Of a DNA stretch of 64,000 nt, positions 21,056 through 31,224 are shown one piece after another (within the stretch, counting starts at the first letter, position 1; the number at the start of each line of letters is the position of its first letter). The stretch comes from Streptomyces hygroscopicus (GTDB lineage Bacteria > Actinomycetota > Actinomycetes > Streptomycetales > Streptomycetaceae): positions 1,364,001 through 1,428,000 of the forward strand of contig CP018627.1 in assembly GCA_002021875.1 (NCBI GenBank), given 5' to 3'. Position numbers and translations under genes: made by a program. The notes beneath the pieces were generated by a model. That model worked only from the letters and a program-made list of their open reading frames with translations, did no database searches and was not told the DNA's origin.

Positions 21056-21172
21056 CACCCGGAACAGGCTCGCGCGGGCGATCCGCGACAGACCTCCGGT
21101 CACCAGGATGGAGCCATCGGGAGCAACGGCTCATACGGCGCTCATATCGCGCCCCTATCACTGGAGTTGACC

Positions 21173-22336
21173 ATGCAGAGCACCAGACGCACGCTGCTGG
21201 CCGCGGCGCTCGTCCTGGGCGTCGTGGCGGGTCCGGCGGTGCCGCCGGCCCTCGCGGCCACCTCGTCCGCGGCGGTCCCCACGCCATCCGGGATTCCCGA
21301 GCTGGAAGCCGCCATCGCGGGTCTGCCGACGAGCGACGCGACGGCCGCGCTGGTACGGGTCGGGGGCTCCGAGGGCGTCTGGAGAGGCAGTTCGGGCGTG
21401 CACGACCTGAGGACCAACCGGCCGGCCGATCCGGCGGGCCGCTTCCGCGCCGGTTCCGTGACCAAGGTCTTCACGGCCGCCGTCGCCCTGCAGCTGGCCG
21501 CCGAGGGCACGCTCGACCTGGACCGCAGCGCTCGTTCGTATCTCCCGGAGCTGATCCCGGCGTCGTACGGGAAGGTCACCGTCCGGCAGTTGCTCAATCA
21601 CACGCACGGCATCCCGGCCCCCGACCTCCCCGGGGACACGGTCGAGGAGTGGTACGCCTACCGCTTCCGGATCCATGACCCCGAGGACATGGTCCGCTCG
21701 GCGACGTCGAAGAACCGCGAGTTCCCGCCCGGCGAGAAACAGCACTATCTGAACATCGGCTACGCCATCGCCGGTCTGATCATCGAGCGGATCTCGGGCG
21801 ACTCGTACGAACACCAGGTGACCCGCCGGATCCTGAAGCCGCTGGGGCTGCGCGACACTTATCTCCCCGGGACCGATCCGCGCATCCTCGGCCCGCACAA
21901 TCACGGCTACCAGACGATGCGGCTGGACGACGGCACGACCGGTCTGCGCGATGTGTCGGTGTGGGGGCCGACGGACGGCTGGGCGGCCGGTGACATCGTC
22001 TCGACCACGGCGGACCTGGAGCGGTTCACCAAGGCGCTGTTCCAGGGGCGGGTGGTGGGCGGCCCGCTGCTGCGGGAGATGTTCACCCTGCCGAAGGTGG
22101 CGGATCTCAAGACCGGCGACCCGGCCTCGTACTCGGTCGGCCTCTCGATGAAGAAGCTGGGCGGCCGTGAGGTGTGGGGAAAGTCGGGCAGCCGCTGGGG
22201 CTACAACACCGCCATCGCCTCCACCCGCGACGGCTCGCGCACCCTGGTCTACAGCGTCAACTCCACGGACGCCAAAGGCCAGGAGATGAACGAGGTGGTG
22301 CGGAACATCATGGTGGCCGCCTACGGCAACCCCTGA
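21173..22336 (+). CDS. Secreted serine hydrolase, class C beta-lactamase/DD-peptidase (S12) family
   Basis: A 387-residue exported enzyme with a signal peptide (about residues 1-29, cleaved after ALA). The penicillin-recognising motifs are SVTK (SxxK), YLN (YxN, in HYLNIGY) and KSG in VWGKSGSRWGYN, which replaces the usual K/H-T-G. Relatives are Streptomyces R61-type D-alanyl-D-alanine carboxypeptidases and esterases, acting outside the membrane. ATG 21173 has GGAG 7 nt upstream and is preferred to TTG 21167. It follows the two-component genes but is far enough away for its own promoter. Confidence 0.88.
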   Translation: MQSTRRTLLAAALVLGVVAGPAVPPALAATSSAAVPTPSGIPELEAAIAGLPTSDATAALVRVGGSEGVWRGSSGVHDLRTNRPADPAGRFRAGSVTKVFTAAVALQLAAEGTLDLDRSARSYLPELIPASYGKVTVRQLLNHTHGIPAPDLPGDTVEEWYAYRFRIHDPEDMVRSATSKNREFPPGEKQHYLNIGYAIAGLIIERISGDSYEHQVTRRILKPLGLRDTYLPGTDPRILGPHNHGYQTMRLDDGTTGLRDVSVWGPTDGWAAGDIVSTTADLERFTKALFQGRVVGGPLLREMFTLPKVADLKTGDPASYSVGLSMKKLGGREVWGKSGSRWGYNTAIASTRDGSRTLVYSVNSTDAKGQEMNEVVRNIMVAAYGNP

Positions 22337-22447: not shown

Positions 22448-24979
22448 TCAGTCCGCCTTGAGGGCCGTGAGGACGTTCAGCCGGGCCGCCCGGCGGGCGG
22501 GCCAGAGTCCCGCCACCACGCCGACGAGTGCGGCGCCCGCGAGGGCCACGGCGATGCGGCCCCAGGGGATGACCATCTCGTAGCCCTGGATGCTGTCGGA
22601 GGCGAGCCTGCCCGCGGCCCAGCCGAGGAAGATGCCCGCGCCGATGCCCAGCAGGGCCCCGAACAGCGAGATGAGGACGGACTCCAGGTGGATCATCCGC
22701 TTGGTCTGCTCGGGCTGGAGCCCCACCGCGCGCAGCATCCCGATCTCACGGGTGCGCTCGAACACGGACATCGCGAGGGTGTTGACGACTCCCAGGACGG
22801 CGATCACCACGGCCATGGCCAGCAGCCCGTACAGGACGTTGAGGAGCAGGGTGATGGACTCGCCGCCGGCGGACTCGGCCAGGTCGTCGGTGTTCCGCAG
22901 CCGGATGAGGGGGTTCTGGTCGAGGGCGCGCTGGAGGGAGCGCCGTACCGTCTCGCCGTCGCCGTCCTTGGTGTGCACCAGGACCGAGGTGTCCTCGATC
23001 TTCTTCAGATGGGGCTGGAGGGTGGCCAGCGGGATCATGGTGGCCGGGAGGAATTCGTCGCTGCGGTAGATGCCGCCGATCCGCAGGGTGCCCCGGCTGC
23101 CGTCGCCGTAGACCACCGGCACCCGCTGTCCCATGGTCCATCCGTAGATGTCGGCCGTGGAGGTGTCGATCAGCAGGTTCTTGCCGCCGCCCGCGCCCAG
23201 TGCCGCGAGCGACCCCGATACGAAGCTCGGATCGAGGAGGTCGCCGATGCTCCGGGCGTCCACACCGGTCAGGTTCACCTCGTCGCCGCCGATCCGGACG
23301 GCGCTCTCGCGCCGCGGGCTCGAGGAGGTCACGGCCGTGGACTTCGCCAGGGTGTCATGGACCGACGTGGGCAGGTGACCGCTGCTCCTCGACGAGATCT
23401 CGAAGTCGGCCGTGACGGTGTTCTCCGCCCGCTGGCGCAGCGATGTCGTGGCGGACACCGCGACCACCGTGAGACCGGTGACCAGGGACAGCCCGATCAT
23501 CAGGGCCGAGGCGGTGGAGGCGGTGCGCCGGGGGTTGCGCCGGGCGTTGCGCGGGGCCAGCGTGCCCGGGACACCGAAGCGGCGCAGGAGGGGGCCGGCC
23601 AGGGCGATGGCCGGGCCGGAGAGCGCCGGGGTCACCACGATGATGCCGATGAGCAGCAGGACGGACGGGAAGAGGACGGTGGTCCGGCCCTCCTCGCCGC
23701 TGGACGCCGTGAACACCACGCCGAGCACACCGATCACGATCAGGGCGACACCGATGGCGTTGCGCCTGCGGAGGCTGCGGACCGGCGGGGGTGTGTGGAG
23801 CGCGGACATGGCGGCCACGGGAGGCACGGCGGCGGCGCGGCGGGCGGGCAGATAGGCGGCGAGCATGGTGACGACGACGCCCACCAGGAACGAGATCAGT
23901 ACGGTGCCCGGGGCGACGACCAACGGCCCGTCGGGGAAGCCGGATCCGGTGGACGCGAACAGCTGCCGGATGCCCATGGCCACGCCGATACCGAGGAGGA
24001 ACCCCGCGGCCCCTGCGCACAGCCCCAGCAGGGCGGCCTCAATGAGGACGGAGCGGGTCACCTGGCGGCGCTCGGCGCCGACGGCCCGCATCAGGGCCAT
24101 CTCCTGCGAACGCTGGGTGACCAGCATGGTGAAGGTGTTGCCGATGACGAAGATGCCGACGAACAGGGCGATGGCCGCGAAGGCGAGCAGCACCTGGCTG
24201 AGCCCTTTGGCCCCCTCGGCGGCATCGGCCTGCTGCTGCGCGCGCAGTTGGGCCCCCGTGTTGATCTCGGAGTTCTCGGGCAGCAGGTCGCGCGCCTCGG
24301 CCGCGAGCCGCTGCTCGGAGGCGCCGCGGTCGGCCTCGAGCGAGACCGCGTCGTAGTGACCGGGCTTCAGCAGCAGCTTCTGAGCGGTGGCGTCGTCGAA
24401 GAGCACCAAGGTGCCGCCGGAGCCGGAGGTGTCGTCGGTGCGGACGATGCCGACGAGTTTCTTGTGCAGCACCGGTCCGTCGACGGCCAGCCGGACGGTG
24501 TCGCCGACCTTGTAGCCGCCCTGGTCGGCGGTGCTGGTGTCCACCAGCACCTCGTCGGGCCCGGTGGGAGCGCGTCCGGCGGTCAGCGGGTGGCGGTTGT
24601 CCTTGCCGTCGGCCTGGGGGAAGTAGTTGCCCGCCATGGTCACGTCGTCCTCGCCGAGCGGGTGGCCGTCCTTCGCGGCCACGGCGGCGGCCCCTTCGAC
24701 GGAACCGGTCACGGACGCCACGCCGGGCAGCCGTTGCAGACGCCGCAGCGTGTCCTCCCCCACGGTTCCGGGCTCGCCGGCCTTCTCGTCGAACGGCGGG
24801 GTGGCCTGGACCGAGACATTGCGCAGGGTGGTGAGGTAGCGCTCCTTGTAGGCGTTGCCGACGGTGTCGGTGAAGACGAGGGTGCCCACGACGAAGGCGA
24901 CGCCGAGCAGAACGGCGAACATGGTCATCAGCAGGCGGGCTTTGTGCGCGAGGACGTTGCGCAAGGCGGTGCGGAACAC
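22448..24979 (-). CDS. ABC transporter permease, FtsX/MacB type, two-repeat form
   Basis: An 843-residue permease with an N-terminal anchor (VLAHKARLLMTMFAVLLGVA), a large extracytoplasmic MacB-type domain, three helices, a central pair of helices and a second extracellular domain with a C-terminal three-helix FtsX block (TREIGMLRAVGLQPEQTKR). The FtsX signature appears twice (SQEMALMRAVGAERRQ and TREIGMLRAVG), so it is an internally duplicated permease of the group paired with LolD/MacB-like ATPases. Such systems act as mechanotransmitters or extrude peptides and antibiotics rather than importing solutes. It is the last gene of the block that starts with the V8-like protease. Confidence 0.92.
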   Translation of the reverse strand: MFRTALRNVLAHKARLLMTMFAVLLGVAFVVGTLVFTDTVGNAYKERYLTTLRNVSVQATPPFDEKAGEPGTVGEDTLRRLQRLPGVASVTGSVEGAAAVAAKDGHPLGEDDVTMAGNYFPQADGKDNRHPLTAGRAPTGPDEVLVDTSTADQGGYKVGDTVRLAVDGPVLHKKLVGIVRTDDTSGSGGTLVLFDDATAQKLLLKPGHYDAVSLEADRGASEQRLAAEARDLLPENSEINTGAQLRAQQQADAAEGAKGLSQVLLAFAAIALFVGIFVIGNTFTMLVTQRSQEMALMRAVGAERRQVTRSVLIEAALLGLCAGAAGFLLGIGVAMGIRQLFASTGSGFPDGPLVVAPGTVLISFLVGVVVTMLAAYLPARRAAAVPPVAAMSALHTPPPVRSLRRRNAIGVALIVIGVLGVVFTASSGEEGRTTVLFPSVLLLIGIIVVTPALSGPAIALAGPLLRRFGVPGTLAPRNARRNPRRTASTASALMIGLSLVTGLTVVAVSATTSLRQRAENTVTADFEISSRSSGHLPTSVHDTLAKSTAVTSSSPRRESAVRIGGDEVNLTGVDARSIGDLLDPSFVSGSLAALGAGGGKNLLIDTSTADIYGWTMGQRVPVVYGDGSRGTLRIGGIYRSDEFLPATMIPLATLQPHLKKIEDTSVLVHTKDGDGETVRRSLQRALDQNPLIRLRNTDDLAESAGGESITLLLNVLYGLLAMAVVIAVLGVVNTLAMSVFERTREIGMLRAVGLQPEQTKRMIHLESVLISLFGALLGIGAGIFLGWAAGRLASDSIQGYEMVIPWGRIAVALAGAALVGVVAGLWPARRAARLNVLTALKAD

Positions 24980-25073
24980 GGGCGGCCTTCCGAGAGGGTG
25001 CCGGGTGAGGGGTGCTCGGGAGCAGGGCGTACGTCAGACGTGGCGAGCGGCCGTCAGGCGCGGGGCATGGGCG

Positions 25074-25841
25074 TCAGACCTGGTACGCGGGCGTCAGGCG
25101 TCCCATGCGCTCCAGGACGGCCTCGGCGGTGGGCGCGCGGAGTTCGTCGACGATGCGCCCGTCGGCGAGGAAGACGACACGGTCCGCGTAGGAGGCGGCG
25201 ACGGGGTCGTGGGTGACCATGACGACGGTCTGACCCAGCGCGCTCGTGGAGCCGCGCAGGAACTCGAGGATCTCGGCCCCGCTGCGGGAGTCCAGGTTGC
25301 CGGTGGGCTCGTCGGCGAAGACGATGTCGGGCCGCCCGGCCAGCGCGCGGGCGACGGCGACGCGCTGCTGCTGGCCGCCGGAGAGCTGGCCGGGCCGGTG
25401 GTCGAGCCGGTCGGCCAGGCCGACGGTCTGGATGATGCTCTCCAGCCAGGCCCGCTCCGGCTTGCGGCCGGCGATGTCCATGGGGAGGGTGATGTTCTCC
25501 ACGGCGCTCAGGGTGGGCAGCAGGTTGAACGCCTGGAAGACGAAACCGATGCGGTCGCGGCGCAGCCGGGTGAGCTGACGGTCGTTCAGGGAGCCGATCT
25601 CCGTGTCGCCGAGGCGGACCGATCCGAAGGACAGCGAGTCGAGACCGGCCATGCAGTGCATCAAGGTGGACTTCCCCGACCCGGACGGACCCATGATCGC
25701 CGTGAACTGGCTCCGGACGAAGCCGACCGTGACCGTGTCGAGGGCCACCACACGGGTGTCCCCCGTGCCGTACACCTTCGTCAGGTCGGTGGCGTGGGCC
25801 GCGTAGCTCTCGGGGGCGGAAGGGGGCAGGTTCGCGTGCAT
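25074..25841 (-). CDS. ABC transporter ATPase (LolD/MacB type)
   Basis: A 255-residue ATPase with Walker [20 protein letters not shown]-loop [16 protein letters not shown], signature [15 protein letters not shown], Walker [14 protein letters not shown] and switch His in VTHDP. The TGNLDS sequence and the NLLPTL Q-loop are typical of MacB/LolD export-type ATPases. ATG 25841 (MHANLPPS) is taken because longer readings enter the upstream repeat region. It pairs with the duplicated permease 94 bp downstream. Confidence 0.94.
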
Positions 25842-26008
25842 GCCGATCCTCGGTGGACGCTCGGTGGATGCCCTCGTAGCAGAGGGAGTCGCCGCGGATG
25901 GCGACCTCCATGAGCCTCCCGCTCGGCCACCCGCCGGCGGATCCCCCGAACATCCGGCACCGCATCCCCCGATCGGGGGAGATCGCCGCGGGACCGCCAT
26001 TCCGGCCC

Positions 26009-26048
26009 GACCGCAATGACGGCCGGACCGCAATGACGGCCGGACCGC
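26009..26048. repeat. 17-bp tandem repeat upstream of the ABC operon
   Basis: GACCGCAATGACGGCCG occurs at 26009-26025 and 26026-26042, followed by a partial GACCGC. The repeats lie in the 223-bp gap between the response-regulator stop and the ABC ATPase start. They could be binding sites for the NarL-type regulator, but I cannot show this. Confidence 0.6.
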
Positions 26049-26064
26049 TGTTTCGGCGAGATCG

Positions 26065-26715
26065 CTATTCGGCACGCCCCGAGCGGAAGGCCCAGGCCGC
26101 GACCTCGACCCTGTTGCGCAGGCCCAGCTTCGCCTGGACCGACCCCAGATGCGTCTTGACGGTGCTGGGCGCGATGTACAGCTCGGCGGCGATCTCCGGG
26201 TTGGTCAGTCCGCGGGCGATGCCCTGGATGACCTCCTCCTCGCGGTCGGTCAGCGGCTCGGCCGGCTCGGCTGCGCCGCGTCGCCGCGCCTTGGTGAAGT
26301 GCTGCAGCAGACGGAGGGTGATCTGCGGGGCGACCATGGCGTCCCCGCGGACGGCCGCCCGGACGGCCTCGGTCAGCAGCGCAGGACCGGCGTCCTTGAG
26401 GAGGAAGCCCGACGCTCCGTTCGACAGCGCCGTGTACACATATTCGTCGAGGTCGAAGGTGGTGACCACGACCACTTTCGGCGCTCCGGGATGACCGCCG
26501 CCGGCCAGTCGGCGGGTGACCTCCAGACCGTCGGGCGGAGGCATCCGGATGTCCACGAGGCAGACGTCCGGCCTCGTCTCGCGGGCCAGCGACAGGGCCG
26601 AGGCCCCGTCGGCGGCCTCGGCCACCACCTCCATGTCGGACTCGGCCGACAGCACCATGCGGAACCCGGCCCGCACCAGGTGCTGATCGTCCGCGACCAG
26701 GATGCGTATGGTCAT
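26065..26715 (-). CDS. NarL/LuxR-type response regulator of the protease-linked block
   Basis: A 216-residue regulator with receiver motifs ILVADDQHLVRAG, phosphorylation site VCLVDIRMPPPDG and GFLLKDAGPAL, then a LuxR helix-turn-helix (LTDREEEVIQGIARG, TNPEIAAELYIAPSTVKTHL). ATG 26715 overlaps the kinase stop (ATGA), which fixes the start and shows translational coupling. It is placed between its kinase and the ABC genes, so the transporter is the likely target, perhaps through the 17-bp repeats just downstream. Confidence 0.94.
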   Translation of the reverse strand: MTIRILVADDQHLVRAGFRMVLSAESDMEVVAEAADGASALSLARETRPDVCLVDIRMPPPDGLEVTRRLAGGGHPGAPKVVVVTTFDLDEYVYTALSNGASGFLLKDAGPALLTEAVRAAVRGDAMVAPQITLRLLQHFTKARRRGAAEPAEPLTDREEEVIQGIARGLTNPEIAAELYIAPSTVKTHLGSVQAKLGLRNRVEVAAWAFRSGRAE

Positions 26716-28025
26716 GCCGTCCTGCCCTCCCGTAGCCGCAACCCGGATCGTACGGCGTGCCGCCCGCGTGCCCGGGCGTTCCGTGACGCCTCGTCGGGGT
26801 GCAGCGGTACGGAGGCGTGGACACGCCACCCGCCTTCGGGGCGGTGACCCGCTTCGAACGTGCCGCCGAGCAGCTCGATCCGCTCCCGCATGCCCATGAT
26901 GCCGAAGCCGCCGCCGAGCCGGCCGAGGCTGCCGCGGTGTCCGGACGGGGAGCCTTGTCCGTCGTCCTCGACGACCAGTTCGGCGTGGCGCGCCGCGACC
27001 CGGGCGGACACGTCCACCGACCGCGCTCCGCGCGCATAGCGCTGGGCGTTGGTCAGGGCTTCCTGCAGGACGCGGCTCAGCCCGCCGGTGACCTCCGTGG
27101 GGACGTCCTCCGGCAGGTCCCGTCCGAGGTCCAGCCGGATCGGCAGCCCCGTCGCCCGTGCCTCGTCCACGATGCGGGTCAGCACCTCGCCGAGGTTCTC
27201 GGGATGCCTCGGGGTCTCGTCACCGCGCATCGAACCGACCAGACGCCGCATCGACGTCAGCGCCTCGCCGCCCGCGTTCTCGACGGCCTCGAGCATCTCG
27301 TTCAGCATCCGCGGGTCGGGGGTGCCCCGGCCGGTGACATGGCGCACGGCCTGTAGCTGCACCACGATCGCGGTCACCTGATGGGCCACGGTGTCGTGCA
27401 GGTCGCGGGCGAGCGCGAGCCGTTCCTCCTGCCGGACGAGCTGTCCGGTGCGTTCCTGCTGGATGTCGTAGAGGCGCAGTACCAGGCCGCAGACGAAGGC
27501 CAGGGCCAGGGCCAGCACGGTGCTGCCGGAGAAGTCGCCGGGATCCGAGTCCCGCAGCAGCGGGACGGAGAACACGCTGATGCCCAGGGCCGCCACGACC
27601 ACCGGTGCCCACCTGGGCGTGCAGCGGCGCACCGCCACGGCGAGGAGGACCAGCAGGCCCATGAGTTCGCTGCCGCTGCTCTCGCTGGTCACCATGTTCA
27701 CCGGCAGCAGGTGGTAGGCAACCGTGGCCACGAAGGTGCCGGCGCAGGCCACCAGCGCGGCCCGCGGGACCCAGCGGGAATCGCGCATCACGGCCAGCAC
27801 GGCCATCCCCCCGGCCAGGGCTCCGGAGCAGACCGGCACCCAGTCCCCGACGAATGCCTCCGTGTCGAAGGTCGGGTCGAAGACGATCCGCTCCGTCACG
27901 TCCCCATAGACGGAGAAGAGGGACAACAGCGCCAGCGCCGAGATCAGGATCCGCCCCGGCCAAGGTCGGTATCCGGCACGGCGGCCGGAGGACACAGCTA
28001 TTCGCACCCGCGCCACCCTACGCAC
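26712..28025 (-). CDS. Sensor histidine kinase, DesK/NarL type, of the protease-linked block
   Basis: A 437-residue membrane kinase with about six hydrophobic segments (residues 25-185). One outside stretch, around RIVFDPTFDTEAFVGDW, is short. It has H-box ARDLHDTVAHQVTAIVVQ and HATPase motifs LQEALTNAQRYARG and GGFGIMGMRERIELLGG. GTG 28025 comes directly after the TAG stop of the small exported protein (28026-28028), with no gap, so the two are almost certainly translated together. Kinases of this shape often sense envelope stress or peptides in the membrane plane together with an ABC permease. Confidence 0.93.
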   Translation of the reverse strand: MRRVARVRIAVSSGRRAGYRPWPGRILISALALLSLFSVYGDVTERIVFDPTFDTEAFVGDWVPVCSGALAGGMAVLAVMRDSRWVPRAALVACAGTFVATVAYHLLPVNMVTSESSGSELMGLLVLLAVAVRRCTPRWAPVVVAALGISVFSVPLLRDSDPGDFSGSTVLALALAFVCGLVLRLYDIQQERTGQLVRQEERLALARDLHDTVAHQVTAIVVQLQAVRHVTGRGTPDPRMLNEMLEAVENAGGEALTSMRRLVGSMRGDETPRHPENLGEVLTRIVDEARATGLPIRLDLGRDLPEDVPTEVTGGLSRVLQEALTNAQRYARGARSVDVSARVAARHAELVVEDDGQGSPSGHRGSLGRLGGGFGIMGMRERIELLGGTFEAGHRPEGGWRVHASVPLHPDEASRNARARGRHAVRSGLRLREGRTA

Positions 28026-28289
28026 CTACGGCGGCGATTGCCGCCCGCCGCCCGCGCGCGGATCGGTGGGCATGGGCGCGGGCCGGGCGTCGCGCACCCG
28101 CTCCGGTGTCCAGTACGAGGGGTCCGGCGGATCCGCCCGGTGGCTCCGCGGGGTGTCCGGGGCGCTCCGTGGGGTGTCCGGGGCGGGGGGATCGCCGGTG
28201 TCCTGGCCCCGGGCGGTGACGGCGAGGGCCGCGACGATGCCGGTTGCCGCGATCGCCGCGGTGAGGAGGGCTGCAGTGAGCGGGCGCAT
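28026..28289 (-). CDS. Small exported protein with protease-type YWTPxR motif
   Basis: An 87-residue protein not matched to a named family. The N-terminus (MRPLTAALLTAAIAATG and following) is a signal peptide or anchor with a possible cleavage after VTA. The rest is Pro/Arg/Asp-rich, with the repeated tract APDTPRSAPDTPRSH and then DPSYWTPERVRDARP. The last stretch matches SAENYWTPQRMRRA in the pro-region of the secreted protease encoded just upstream. ATG 28289 is preceded by a purine-rich tract, and the TAG stop abuts the kinase GTG. It may be a stand-alone pro-domain-like partner, a sensed peptide, or the stub of a duplicated protease gene; tight coupling to the kinase favours a function. 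Confidence 0.6.
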   Translation of the reverse strand: MRPLTAALLTAAIAATGIVAALAVTARGQDTGDPPAPDTPRSAPDTPRSHRADPPDPSYWTPERVRDARPAPMPTDPRAGGGRQSPP

Positions 28290-28311
28290 GGCGTTCTCTC
28301 CCGATGCCGGA

Positions 28312-28342
28312 GGCCGGGACCCCTGGCTGCGGGGCCCCGGCC
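28312..28342. terminator. Hairpin between protease and small-protein genes
   Basis: GGCCGGGACCCC and GGGGCCCCGGCC pair with one mismatch around a 7-nt loop, between the protease stop and the ATG at 28289. It could end most protease transcripts while letting some continue into the kinase block. Confidence 0.6.
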
Positions 28343-28380
28343 GAGTGCGGTGTGGTACTGAGCCGTTGGCGGTGTGGTGC

Positions 28381-29361
28381 TCAGCCGTTGGCGGTGTTGT
28401 TGTAGATCGTTTGGATCTTGTTGTCGAAGTAGGGGCTGTCGATGTAGGCGGGCGGATCGGTCCGGGTGCTGGTGACCCCGATCTCGGTCCCCAGGCCCGT
28501 GGTCTCGTTGTAGTCCCGCAGCCAGGGGCCGCCGCTGGCGCCCTCGACCATGGTGCACCCGTTCTGCACCCGGGAGCCGTCCTGCCACGTGCCGATGTTC
28601 TGGCACACGTAGGGCACCTCGCCGTCATAGCCGAAGGCGGCCGGGTAGCCCCAGACGGTCACGGTGTTGGCGTACCCGTAGTTGTAGCCGAGCCCCATGC
28701 CGCCGACGGTGTTGACCAGCTTGCTGGAGCCGTTGTCCCAGACGTTGGCCACGCCGATGTCGTAGTTCAGGTCACTGCTATTGATCCAGCCGTTGAACGA
28801 GGTGAGCGTCTTGGCGGACCAGGTTCCGTACGGCCGTGAGCCGTTGTAGTAGGCGGGAACGAACACCCAGTTGGTCGCCCAGGTGCCGCCGGCGCCACCG
28901 TGGACGCAGTGCCCGGCGGTGAACACCATGTTCTTCGTCGGATTGTTGACCGCCGCGGCGGAGCAGGCGTAGTCGCCGCCGTTGGTCGGGTTGTGGAAGA
29001 AGACCTTCCCCTGCACGATCGAGGTCGCGATCCGGACCCCGCGGGCCTTCTTCGAAGTGGTCGCCTTCTGCGGTTTCGCGAGCTGAGAGGGTTTGGCCGC
29101 CGCGTCGATGGCCGCCTTCCGGGACGCCTTGGCGTCGGCGGGCGTGTCGGCCTCGACGGCTCTGCGCATGCGCTGTGGAGTCCAGTAATTCTCGGCGGAC
29201 TCAGCGGATGAGCGGGACGCCGCACTCTTGTGTGTGGATACCGCGGTGTCCGCGGTACGTGTGACGGTGCTGTGCGAGTCGGCGGACGCGGCCGCCGGAA
29301 TCGTCAGGGCGAACGCGAAAACCACTCCGCTCGCCGCTAAAACGACCTTGCGTATCTGCAC
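28381..29361 (-). CDS. Secreted trypsin-like serine protease (V8/glutamyl endopeptidase-like)
   Basis: A 326-residue exported protease. The signal peptide spans about residues 1-28 (cleaved near AASA). A pro-region of about 90 residues contains SAENYWTPQRMRRA, and the chymotrypsin-fold domain has VFTAGHCVHGG (His), SSDLNYDIGVANV (Asp) and MVEGASGGPW (Ser). Two Cys pairs (YACSAA/GHCVH and VCQNI/NGCTM) fit disulfides. Specificity cannot be fixed from sequence. GTG 29361 follows GGGGGG. The last codons and stop (GCCAACGGCT) are tandemly duplicated just beyond the gene. It heads the minus-strand block with the small YWTP protein, kinase, regulator and ABC genes. Confidence 0.92.
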   Translation of the reverse strand: MQIRKVVLAASGVVFAFALTIPAAASADSHSTVTRTADTAVSTHKSAASRSSAESAENYWTPQRMRRAVEADTPADAKASRKAAIDAAAKPSQLAKPQKATTSKKARGVRIATSIVQGKVFFHNPTNGGDYACSAAAVNNPTKNMVFTAGHCVHGGAGGTWATNWVFVPAYYNGSRPYGTWSAKTLTSFNGWINSSDLNYDIGVANVWDNGSSKLVNTVGGMGLGYNYGYANTVTVWGYPAAFGYDGEVPYVCQNIGTWQDGSRVQNGCTMVEGASGGPWLRDYNETTGLGTEIGVTSTRTDPPAYIDSPYFDNKIQTIYNNTANG

Positions 29362-29716
29362 CAGTCCCCCCAAATTTTGATCGGGACAGGGAGCGGATGC
29401 CCCCGGTGAAATCCCGGCCGCACGGTATCGCGCGGTGAAGTGCGCACGGCAAGGGACTGCGGGCGGCGAGAACGGTATCCGGCCAGGCATTACAGCCCCG
29501 GGCGGTACGGAAAATCGCCTCCCGGCTCCTGGGCTGCCCTATCCGGCAAAAGCGGAATGGGTCTTGTGCCGCATTGAACGAGGAATTCCGACGCGTCGAC
29601 GCGCGTCAACGCACGACACGTCCCACCACCGCCTCCGTGGCGACGTCCACCCCACTCCCACAGTGTCCGGAATTCGCATTCGCATTTATCCGGCTGAATT
29701 CATGGAGGGGCCATTC
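29362..29716. other. Non-coding gap between the protease and P450-side genes
   Basis: These 355 bases separate divergent transcription units. The right half is AT-richer than its surroundings (around GAATTCGCATTCGCATTTAT at 29670). I see no convincing gene, RNA or inverted repeat. It probably holds the protease promoter and that of the small ORF at 29717. Confidence 0.5.
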
Positions 29717-29890
29717 ATGTATGCACAGCAGCCCCGCGCAGTGCGATATGCACCGCCCACCGCAGCGGATACGGGAGCACGACGGACCGCTCGCCGCCCC
29801 ATCTCGTCCACGACTCGCCCGGCGCACCACGGGGATCCGCCGAGGCATCGTCACCGCAGGGAAGTTGGCCTGACGCGATCACTTCGTTAG
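29717..29890 (+). CDS. Possible small basic protein upstream of the P450 gene
   Basis: A 57-residue ORF, beginning MYAQQPRAVRYAPPTAADTG and ending in an Arg/His-rich tail. GGAGGGG lies 7 nt before ATG 29717, which is why it is listed. I recognise no family and see no core-peptide pattern, so it could be chance. It ends 47 bp before the P450 start. Confidence 0.3.
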   Translation: MYAQQPRAVRYAPPTAADTGARRTARRPISSTTRPAHHGDPPRHRHRREVGLTRSLR

Positions 29891-29937
29891 CCTCCCGGCA
29901 GCCCCGCAGATCCGCCGCTCCCGAGGAAGACAATGCA

Positions 29938-31224
29938 GTGACGAACCCCCAGGACGACCAGGACACGCAGGCCCCGCACCCCACACCGGAGGCACCACCC
30001 CCGGGCTGCCCCGCCCACGCCGCACGACTGTACGGGCCGGATTTCCGGCGCCGGCCGACCGAGACCTACCAGCGGATACGGCACGACAGCGGACAGGTCG
30101 CCCCCGTCCTGCTCGAAGGCGACATCGACGCCTGGTTCGTCCTCGGCTACCGCGAGACGCGCCAGGTGCTGTCCGACGTCGAGACCTTCGGCCGGGACCC
30201 GCGCCGCTGGAACGGCTGGGACAGCGTGCCGCCGGACTGGCCGCTCATGCCGTGGGTGGCGTACAGCCCGATGATGCCCTTCACGGAGGGCGAGGAGCAC
30301 CGGCAGCGTGCGACGGCCGCCAGCGAGGCCCTCGCCACGGTCGACCCCTTCGTGCTGCGCGGGCACTGCGAGCGCTTCGCCGACCAGCTCATCGACAAGT
30401 TCGCCGTGAGCGGCAAGGCGGATCTGGTGTACGACTACATCTACTCGGTGCCCACTCTCGCCGCGGCCGAGCTGTTCGGCCTGGCCGACGACGAGGGCGG
30501 GCTGGAGGCCCTGGCGGGAGGGCTGACCGTCTCGTTCCTCTCCAACGAGGAAGCCATCGCCGGCCAGCAGCAGGTCGCCGCGTACGTGGCGGATCTGGTG
30601 AAAGCCAAGCGCGAGGCGCCGGGCCCCGACCTCACCTCGCAGTTCATCCTGAACACCCCGGACCTGGCCGAGGAGCAGCAGACCGCCGACCTGATGGTGC
30701 TGATGGCCGCCGCGCTGCCGCTCACCTCGTACTGGATCGGCAACACCCTGCGGCTGATGCTCACCGACGAGCGCTTCGCCATGACCCTCTCGGGCAACCG
30801 CCGCAGCATCGGCGAGGCCATGAACGAGGTGCTGTGGGCGGACTCCCCGCTGCAGAACCTCATCGGGCGGTACGCCACCCGGGACACCGCCCTCGGAGGC
30901 CGGCGCATCCGCACCGGCGACCTCGTCGTCCTCGGCCTGGCCGCCGCCAACGCCGATCCGCTGCTGTGGCCCGACACCCCCGTCGGCCACGGCGGGAACC
31001 ACTCGCACGTCAGCTTCAGCGGCGGTGACTACGGCTGCCCGGTGGGCGGCCCCGAGACGGCCAGGATCATCGCGGAGACGGCGATCGAGGTGCTGCTGGA
31101 CCGCGTTCCGGACCTGACACTGGCGGTCGCGCCCGAGGAGCTGAAGTGGGTGGACTCCTTCTGGTACCGCTGCCTGGAATCGCTGCCCGTCACGTTCAGC
31201 CCCACGGCGGTCACCGCGGGCTAG
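29938..31224 (+). CDS. Cytochrome P450 lacking the ExxR motif (CYP157-like)
   Basis: A 428-residue soluble P450. The heme-ligand loop is SHVSFSGGDYGCPVGGPE, with the Cys thiolate in an FxxG-xxx-C context. The K-helix reads AMNEVLWADSPLQNLIGRY, giving EVLW where nearly all P450s have ExxR. The I-helix reads LMAAALPLTSYWIGNT, without the usual AGxxT acid-alcohol pair. The Streptomyces CYP157 family is known to lack ExxR, with a Glu...Leu-Trp sequence here, so this is probably a member. GTG 29938 follows GAGGAAG. No ferredoxin, reductase or conservon genes adjoin it. Whether it monooxygenates anything is unknown. Confidence 0.88.
   Translation: MTNPQDDQDTQAPHPTPEAPPPGCPAHAARLYGPDFRRRPTETYQRIRHDSGQVAPVLLEGDIDAWFVLGYRETRQVLSDVETFGRDPRRWNGWDSVPPDWPLMPWVAYSPMMPFTEGEEHRQRATAASEALATVDPFVLRGHCERFADQLIDKFAVSGKADLVYDYIYSVPTLAAAELFGLADDEGGLEALAGGLTVSFLSNEEAIAGQQQVAAYVADLVKAKREAPGPDLTSQFILNTPDLAEEQQTADLMVLMAAALPLTSYWIGNTLRLMLTDERFAMTLSGNRRSIGEAMNEVLWADSPLQNLIGRYATRDTALGGRRIRTGDLVVLGLAAANADPLLWPDTPVGHGGNHSHVSFSGGDYGCPVGGPETARIIAETAIEVLLDRVPDLTLAVAPEELKWVDSFWYRCLESLPVTFSPTAVTAG

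Follow-up and report, generated by a model that had tools for sequence, protein, structure and literature searches.

The window analysed here is a stretch of 64,000 nucleotides (nt) of Streptomyces hygroscopicus DNA (contig CP018627.1, positions 1,364,001 to 1,428,000). Six genes on its minus strand run in the order protease, small open reading frame (ORF), sensor kinase, response regulator, ATP-binding cassette (ABC) ATPase and permease, as a first-pass annotation of the sequence had proposed and as ORF and domain analysis confirms. The gaps between them are, in order, 91 nt, 0, -4, 223 nt and 94 nt. That annotation had treated the genes as one block, in which the protease and the small protein would feed the kinase. 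The interesting part of the locus is the small protein. Judged from sequence comparison, it appears to be a partner of V8-like proteases that bears a motif, turns up repeatedly and has no name so far; we propose an action for it below.

A protease pro-region motif and its free copy

The first gene (28381..29361, minus strand; GTG start, 326 amino acids) encodes a secreted V8-like serine protease with a signal peptide and a pro-region. Modelling and a structure search give it a chymotrypsin fold near AL20 (3cp7) and Anisep (3wy8), and the PDB matches listed for the precursor span residues 109-326 only, i.e., they do not reach the pro-region. Residues H151, D201 and S276 are invariant in 84 protease sequences, and we take them to be the His-Asp-Ser triad from the fold and the motif. 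The pro-region motif occupies residues 59-74 (YWTPQRMRRAVEADTP; 29140..29187, minus strand). A search found 642 protease homologues, and 116 of the 120 listed among them carry [YF]W[TS]xx[RK] ahead of the catalytic part; three of the four without the strict motif (P0028, P0034, P0066 and P0081) appear to be N-terminally short, at 258 to 276 amino acids. An alignment of 84 homologues shows no variation at W60, T61 and A68 and at least 90% conservation at Y59, R64 and M65, the rest of the pro-region being variable. On these alignments, "YWTP" is best described as a motif in the pro-region of V8-like proteases from actinobacteria. The model of the precursor, built from 84 sequences, has a predicted local distance difference test score (pLDDT) of 88.8 and a predicted template modelling score (pTM) of 0.86. 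Its pro residues 41-80 reach block pLDDT values of 92-96 and form a strand (41-45) and two helices (50-59 and 62-67), the second of which lies within the motif.

The small ORF (28026..28289, minus strand; TAG stop at 28028-28026) encodes an exported protein of 87 amino acids. It consists of a hydrophobic N-terminal helix, a low-complexity linker with APDTPRS repeats and, at the C-terminal end, a block carrying the motif (residues 59-79, 28053..28115, minus strand; YWTPERVRDARPAPMPTDPRA). It is a separate gene to which no catalytic domain was matched, and a Pfam scan of the protein found no family at E<=0.1. The profile used for comparison was built from the motif of 113 non-orthologous proteases. 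The small ORF matches it with 19.9 bits (E 3.1e-5, computed among 1457 sequences), and the earlier claim that a small exported protein shares the pro-region motif of the protease is thereby borne out. None of 500 shuffles scores above 5.0 bits (E 1.4) over its whole sequence, and the top single stretch shown reaches 9.4 bits. At the DNA level, the pattern YWTxxR[MVL] has four matches in the genome versus five in a reversed control; two of the four are the window protease and the small ORF, and the remaining two fall within frames that are 68 and 46 amino acids long.

Selection acts on the motif. Over eight intact orthologous loci, the 28-codon motif block (HRADPPDP..PTDP) has a pooled ratio of nonsynonymous to synonymous change (pN/pS) of 0.05, with 109 synonymous and 14 other differences summed over pairs. 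The kinase gives 0.39 by the same measure and the catalytic part of the protease 0.16. Because of this constraint on the motif block, we regard the small ORF as a genuine gene on sequence grounds. A model of the small protein alone, made from 47 relatives, has a pTM of 0.21 and shows only a hydrophobic helix at residues 4-28 and a motif helix at 62-67. The protein is probably membrane-anchored, and the models would fit a docking of the motif onto the protease.

Some minor features of this part of the locus were also recorded. The linker contains a 21-bp tandem repeat (28143-28184) coding for the seven residues APDTPRS/T, which is present in one to five copies among close relatives. Weak matches to 15 Pfam families among the small proteins (best E 0.0026; DUF4148, for example, in 5 of 47) were attributed to chance from the hydrophobic stretch. 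The spacer between protease and small ORF (28290..28380, minus strand) can form a GC-rich 12-bp stem-loop without a T-run, with a minimum free energy of -38 kcal/mol and a z of -1.23. It was dropped as a signal; the stem is clear, yet 19 of 200 shuffles fold equally well. A consensus scan of 25000-30000 found neither a terminator-like nor a sigma-70-like site.

Motif-bearing small proteins elsewhere

The protease-only motif profile, which includes no small protein, found short open frames in other Streptomyces. With a nine-row alignment of small proteins, 200 proteins were found at E<=1, and 120 of these were listed, 100 of them new. The listed relatives are mostly of 70-100 amino acids, with a hydrophobic start and YWTPERM..A.PAPMP close to the C-terminal end. 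They include Streptomyces, Wenjunlia, Actinomadura, Micromonospora and Plantactinospora records, and those with names are annotated as hypothetical, secreted or uncharacterised proteins. Five relatives that look secreted (P0150, P0163, P0169, P0180 and P0184) contain two or three copies of YWTPERMRNAxP or near variants, and by record name two single-motif relatives come from Dendronalium (P0236) and Nostoc (P0244). Plasmid searches with two of the small proteins gave no match.

To see what lies beside such genes we turn to genomic loci, the small-frame searches being samples of a genus, phylum or class. From the printed short-frame matches (<=258 amino acids), 27 loci outside the clade of the window were fetched and 25 were accepted. 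One of those set aside (L149, in G146) shows no export signal and has no protease found in 12 kb; the other (L219, in G671) adjoins a protease, but its motif has drifted to YWDDDR and it, too, lacks a visible export signal. A V8-like protease adjoins the small protein in 12 of the 25 accepted loci (13 of 27 if the two are included). Seven pairs are in tandem like that of the window (L144, L145, L193, L197, L198, L199 and L200), four are convergent (L146, L147, L148 and L210) and one is divergent (L221). The protease of L197 is broken, and that of L146 is in frame for the catalytic part only. Since 64 V8-like proteases occur in 141.7 Mb (17 genomes, of which sixteen contain accepted loci), the chance of such adjacency within a reach of 3 kb is about 0.14% per locus. 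The pair thus recurs, and protease and small protein appear from these arrangements to belong together. In L221, both members carry HWTPER in place of YWTPER.

Queries with the kinase, regulator and ABC proteins of the window found a related kinase in none of the 25 accepted loci. A regulator with 28.6% identity lies 3.9 kb away in L211, and a related ABC pair lies 1.5 to 5 kb away in L146. The recurrence of such pairs in other actinomycetes points to a partner protein made on its own, which may control the protease and does not belong to the adjoining sensor-kinase system.

The kinase unit in close relatives

Downstream of the small ORF lie a HisKA_3 sensor kinase (26712..28025, starting at 28025 or 28007), a LuxR/NarL-type response regulator assigned by domain match (26065..26715), a MacB/LolD-like ABC transporter ATPase assigned by domain and similarity (25074..25841) and a permease of 843 amino acids (22448..24979), all on the minus strand. 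The first-pass annotation was right about the 4-bp overlap of kinase and regulator (ATGA) and about the duplication of the permease, which has two FtsX and two MacB_PCD stretches. This set of HisKA_3 kinase, LuxR regulator, ATPase and FtsX/MacB permease places the four genes among the NarL/LiaR-type two-component systems with an FtsX/MacB-type exporter.

The kinase is scarce in the genus: at E<=1e-100, 11 of the 392 genomes sampled have it. The genus sample and named loci gave 18 distinct close loci, window included; L093, L103 and L104 are on the same contigs as L013, L015 and L018 and were counted once, and L097, whose kinase is a 55% relative, was left out of the count. All 18 have stop-free kinase, regulator, ATPase and permease genes. 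The protease is intact in nine and the small ORF in eight. Both are intact in the window, L013, L015, L017, L019, L092, L096 and L102, and neither is intact in nine loci (L012, L014, L018, L020, L021, L022, L094, L095 and L105). The small ORF is frameshifted in L012, L016 and L021, and L021 has also lost the signal-peptide region and the stop of its protease. None of the eight genomes without a neighbouring protease has a close protease orthologue elsewhere, and relatives of only 39-41% identity were found in three of them. Conservation of the whole six-gene order, which the single-block view would have led one to expect, therefore holds in part: it is seen in 8 of the 18 loci and fails where the protease (9 of 18) or the small ORF (10 of 18) is not intact.

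The kinase unit is thus independent of the two genes before it, for which the 18 loci provide stronger sequence evidence than they do for a linkage between protease and small ORF. It is an ordinary unit of the envelope-stress type, whose genes are kept where the pair has been lost. In LiaF/CseA-type three-component systems, a kinase works with a dedicated exported accessory sensor protein. Co-conservation of such an accessory protein with the kinase is not seen here, an intact small ORF accompanying the open kinase in 8 of 18 loci.

The start of the kinase bears on this independence. The earlier statement that the TAG of the small ORF abuts the kinase GTG is correct for the GTG at 28025 and fails if the kinase starts at the GTG at 28007, and the two starts are equally probable. 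At codon 7 (28007) most relatives read GTG, and L014, L022 and L094 read ATG; codon 1 is ATG in L016. Seven nt ahead of codon 7 is TAGGGT (28015..28020, minus strand), by eye a putative -10 element of a leaderless kinase promoter, and TANNNT is kept at this site in relatives. In L097, where no small ORF was seen, TTGCCA-16-TACGGT-6-GTG can be read by eye. Because of the ATG/GTG pattern at codon 7, the TANNNT element and the promoter-like spacing in L097, a leaderless kinase transcript is plausible from the sequence. The consensus scan found no sigma-70 consensus at this putative promoter. As a side observation, the region upstream of the kinase in L012 (S. europaeiscabiei) resembles P0023, a protein annotated with DUF6192, and leads into the degraded small ORF; from its sequence it is likely to be a recombination joint.

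Two probable modules and a proposed role for the small protein

We suggest, with a probability of about 55%, that the locus consists of two neighbouring modules. The first would be the protease with a free pro-motif protein acting in trans, and the second is the separate kinase, regulator and ABC unit, each presumably with a promoter of its own. Several observations weigh against this suggestion. No V8-like protease is near 13 of the 25 accepted loci, so some other protein, or a protease encoded far away, may be the partner there. In seven of these loci (L212-L218) the gene that comes directly after that of the motif protein encodes a sigma-70 family factor of the primary type, with regions 1.2 to 4; three (L194, L195 and L196) have an adjoining aldehyde dehydrogenase gene, and the remainder (L150, L211 and L220) have other neighbours. 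Outside the motif block the constraint is weaker, the whole small ORF giving a pN/pS of 0.53 over the eight loci and 1.05 for the window-L096 pair. The protease of L148 has H where its small protein has Y, and the small frame of L200 is without an N-terminal anchor. The flanks of cognate pairs are only weakly more similar than those of shuffled pairs (p 0.031, 9 pairs, driven by L147), and this co-variation was dropped as proof. Within the close relatives, the protease of L016 is retained and the small ORF beside it is frameshifted. The joint presence of the two genes among the 18 loci (Fisher's p 2e-4) is weak evidence of linkage, because the loci are related and a single breakpoint may explain the double loss; the 5' part is also gone in four of five loci that bear remnants.

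With respect to the neighbours just named, L212-L218 are seven of the nine fetched loci of one other actinomycete family (f77), the remaining two being L210, beside a protease, and L220. A metallo-beta-lactamase-fold gene follows in L194 and L196.

The alternative that survives best is that the motif is the ligand of a third party, such as a sorting, anchoring or processing factor of the actinobacterial envelope, or that the small protein is a peptide precursor or substrate. Protease and small protein would then have the motif in common through their use of that factor. The loci without a neighbouring protease, including the seven beside a sigma factor gene, would be explained in this way. Proteins with two or three motif copies fit a multi-site ligand or a peptide precursor, and an N-terminal hydrophobic helix, or a start that by eye is lipobox-like (L198), is also compatible with it. 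Against it stand the 12 of 25 loci that adjoin a V8-like protease, and a motif that is confidently ordered in the modelled protease precursor alone. We consider it unlikely, if the most serious of the rivals.

The signalling circuit implied by the first-pass annotation, in which the kinase senses either the cleavage product that the protease makes from the small protein or the lack of that product, and in turn drives the ABC exporter, is improbable. It has in its favour the zero spacing of small ORF and kinase in the window and the intact relatives, and the co-occurrence of protease, small ORF and kinase in eight loci. We rejected it as the main explanation on the 18-locus comparison, because the kinase unit is open throughout, including the 10 loci that lack a small ORF or have a broken one and the 9 of which the same is true for the protease. 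In about half of the relatives, protease and small ORF are unconserved beside the kinase, no such kinase is found near the small proteins of the 25 accepted loci elsewhere, and the kinase has a putative promoter of its own.

That the small ORF is a functionless, decaying partial duplicate of the 5' end of the protease gene is very hard to sustain given the selection test on the motif block and the numerous divergent stand-alone relatives, even though the two share a layout of hydrophobic start, linker and motif and the small ORF has a variable, repeat-bearing linker and frameshifts in three loci.

Under the two-module arrangement, a mechanism can be proposed from the models. A short strand of the pro-region and the two helices that follow it, of which the latter holds YWTPERM, would pack against the catalytic domain, and the pro-region would later be cut off. 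Displayed at the cell surface, the small protein would present this motif in trans and would bind the protease, either as precursor or as mature enzyme. This binding could restrain the protease near the cell, aid its folding or tether it. We favour an anchored mimic of the pro-region that restrains the protease near the producing cell as the likeliest role, and a trans-acting folding aid or a tether are close alternatives. A wider claim is more doubtful, although it deserves mention: the small proteins might form an undescribed family of envelope-anchored YWTPERM proteins that control V8-like secreted proteases in trans across the actinomycetes, with relatives under the record names Nostoc and Dendronalium and repeated motif copies in some members. 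They would be a family of propeptide mimics for this protease fold in bacteria, possibly the first to be described.

Inhibitor genes beside protease genes are known from staphostatin and staphopain, where staphostatin is not known to be a relative of a propeptide. Closer to the present case, available text of published reports describes stand-alone propeptide mimics that inhibit subtilisin- and cathepsin-type enzymes, namely SUB1-ProM and TgMIC5 for subtilisins and CTLA-2alpha, crammer and BCPI for cathepsins (PMC6993865, PMC4089206, PMC3551606). Like them, the small protein is separately encoded, resembles a protease pro-region and is without a catalytic domain (PMC6993865). Those mimics copy whole folded propeptide domains of the S8 or papain type, whereas the small protein of the window shares only about 30 residues, on a hydrophobic N-terminus, and its target would be a V8-like protease of the chymotrypsin fold. 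Inhibition in trans would be one of the possible actions of the small protein of the window. Precursors of glutamyl endopeptidase and V8-like enzymes, with their two-part propeptide, are likewise secreted chymotrypsin-fold proteases with a pro-region, and the long propeptide of V8-like enzymes is described as a folding assistant (PMC5508998); the available text of that paper mentions neither the YWTPERM motif nor a free copy of it. No publication with YWTPERM or YWTPE was found in the literature searched, which mostly excludes subscription journals. The principle of a propeptide mimic is therefore known for subtilisins and cathepsins, and what would be new, by this comparison, is the proposed variant for V8-like proteases of the chymotrypsin fold.

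Chymotrypsin-fold secreted proteases are common in Streptomyces and are thought to be controlled by pro-regions cleaved in cis or by unrelated inhibitors. If our suggestion is true, an anchored free pro-motif would be a simple means to restrain or localise such proteases at the producing cell. It would also offer access to the one part of these pro-regions that is strongly conserved, and a family of small proteins whose present annotation is no more than hypothetical or secreted would gain a role. The locus also advises caution in inferring a single circuit from gene order, as a protease pair and a kinase/exporter unit adjoin here and are kept or lost separately.

With regard to the second module, the AbrA1/A2 two-component system of Streptomyces coelicolor, which adjoins the two-gene ABC transporter SCO1742/43, offers a comparison by description only (PMC4193843). 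Both combine a two-component system with an adjoining ABC transporter of two genes. According to the available text, the ABC genes are BcrAB-like in the AbrA1/A2 case and lie upstream in one four-gene operon (PMC4193843), whereas in the window an FtsX/MacB-type pair lies downstream after the 223-nt gap. This gap between regulator and ATPase (25842-26064) contains short repeated segments (gcggtccggccgtcatt) and differs in length among relatives; it is a possible candidate operator region. Beyond the permease, a convergent gene on the plus strand (21167-22336) has a Beta-lactamase domain (PF00144, E 1.1e-58), and its position is retained in several relatives.

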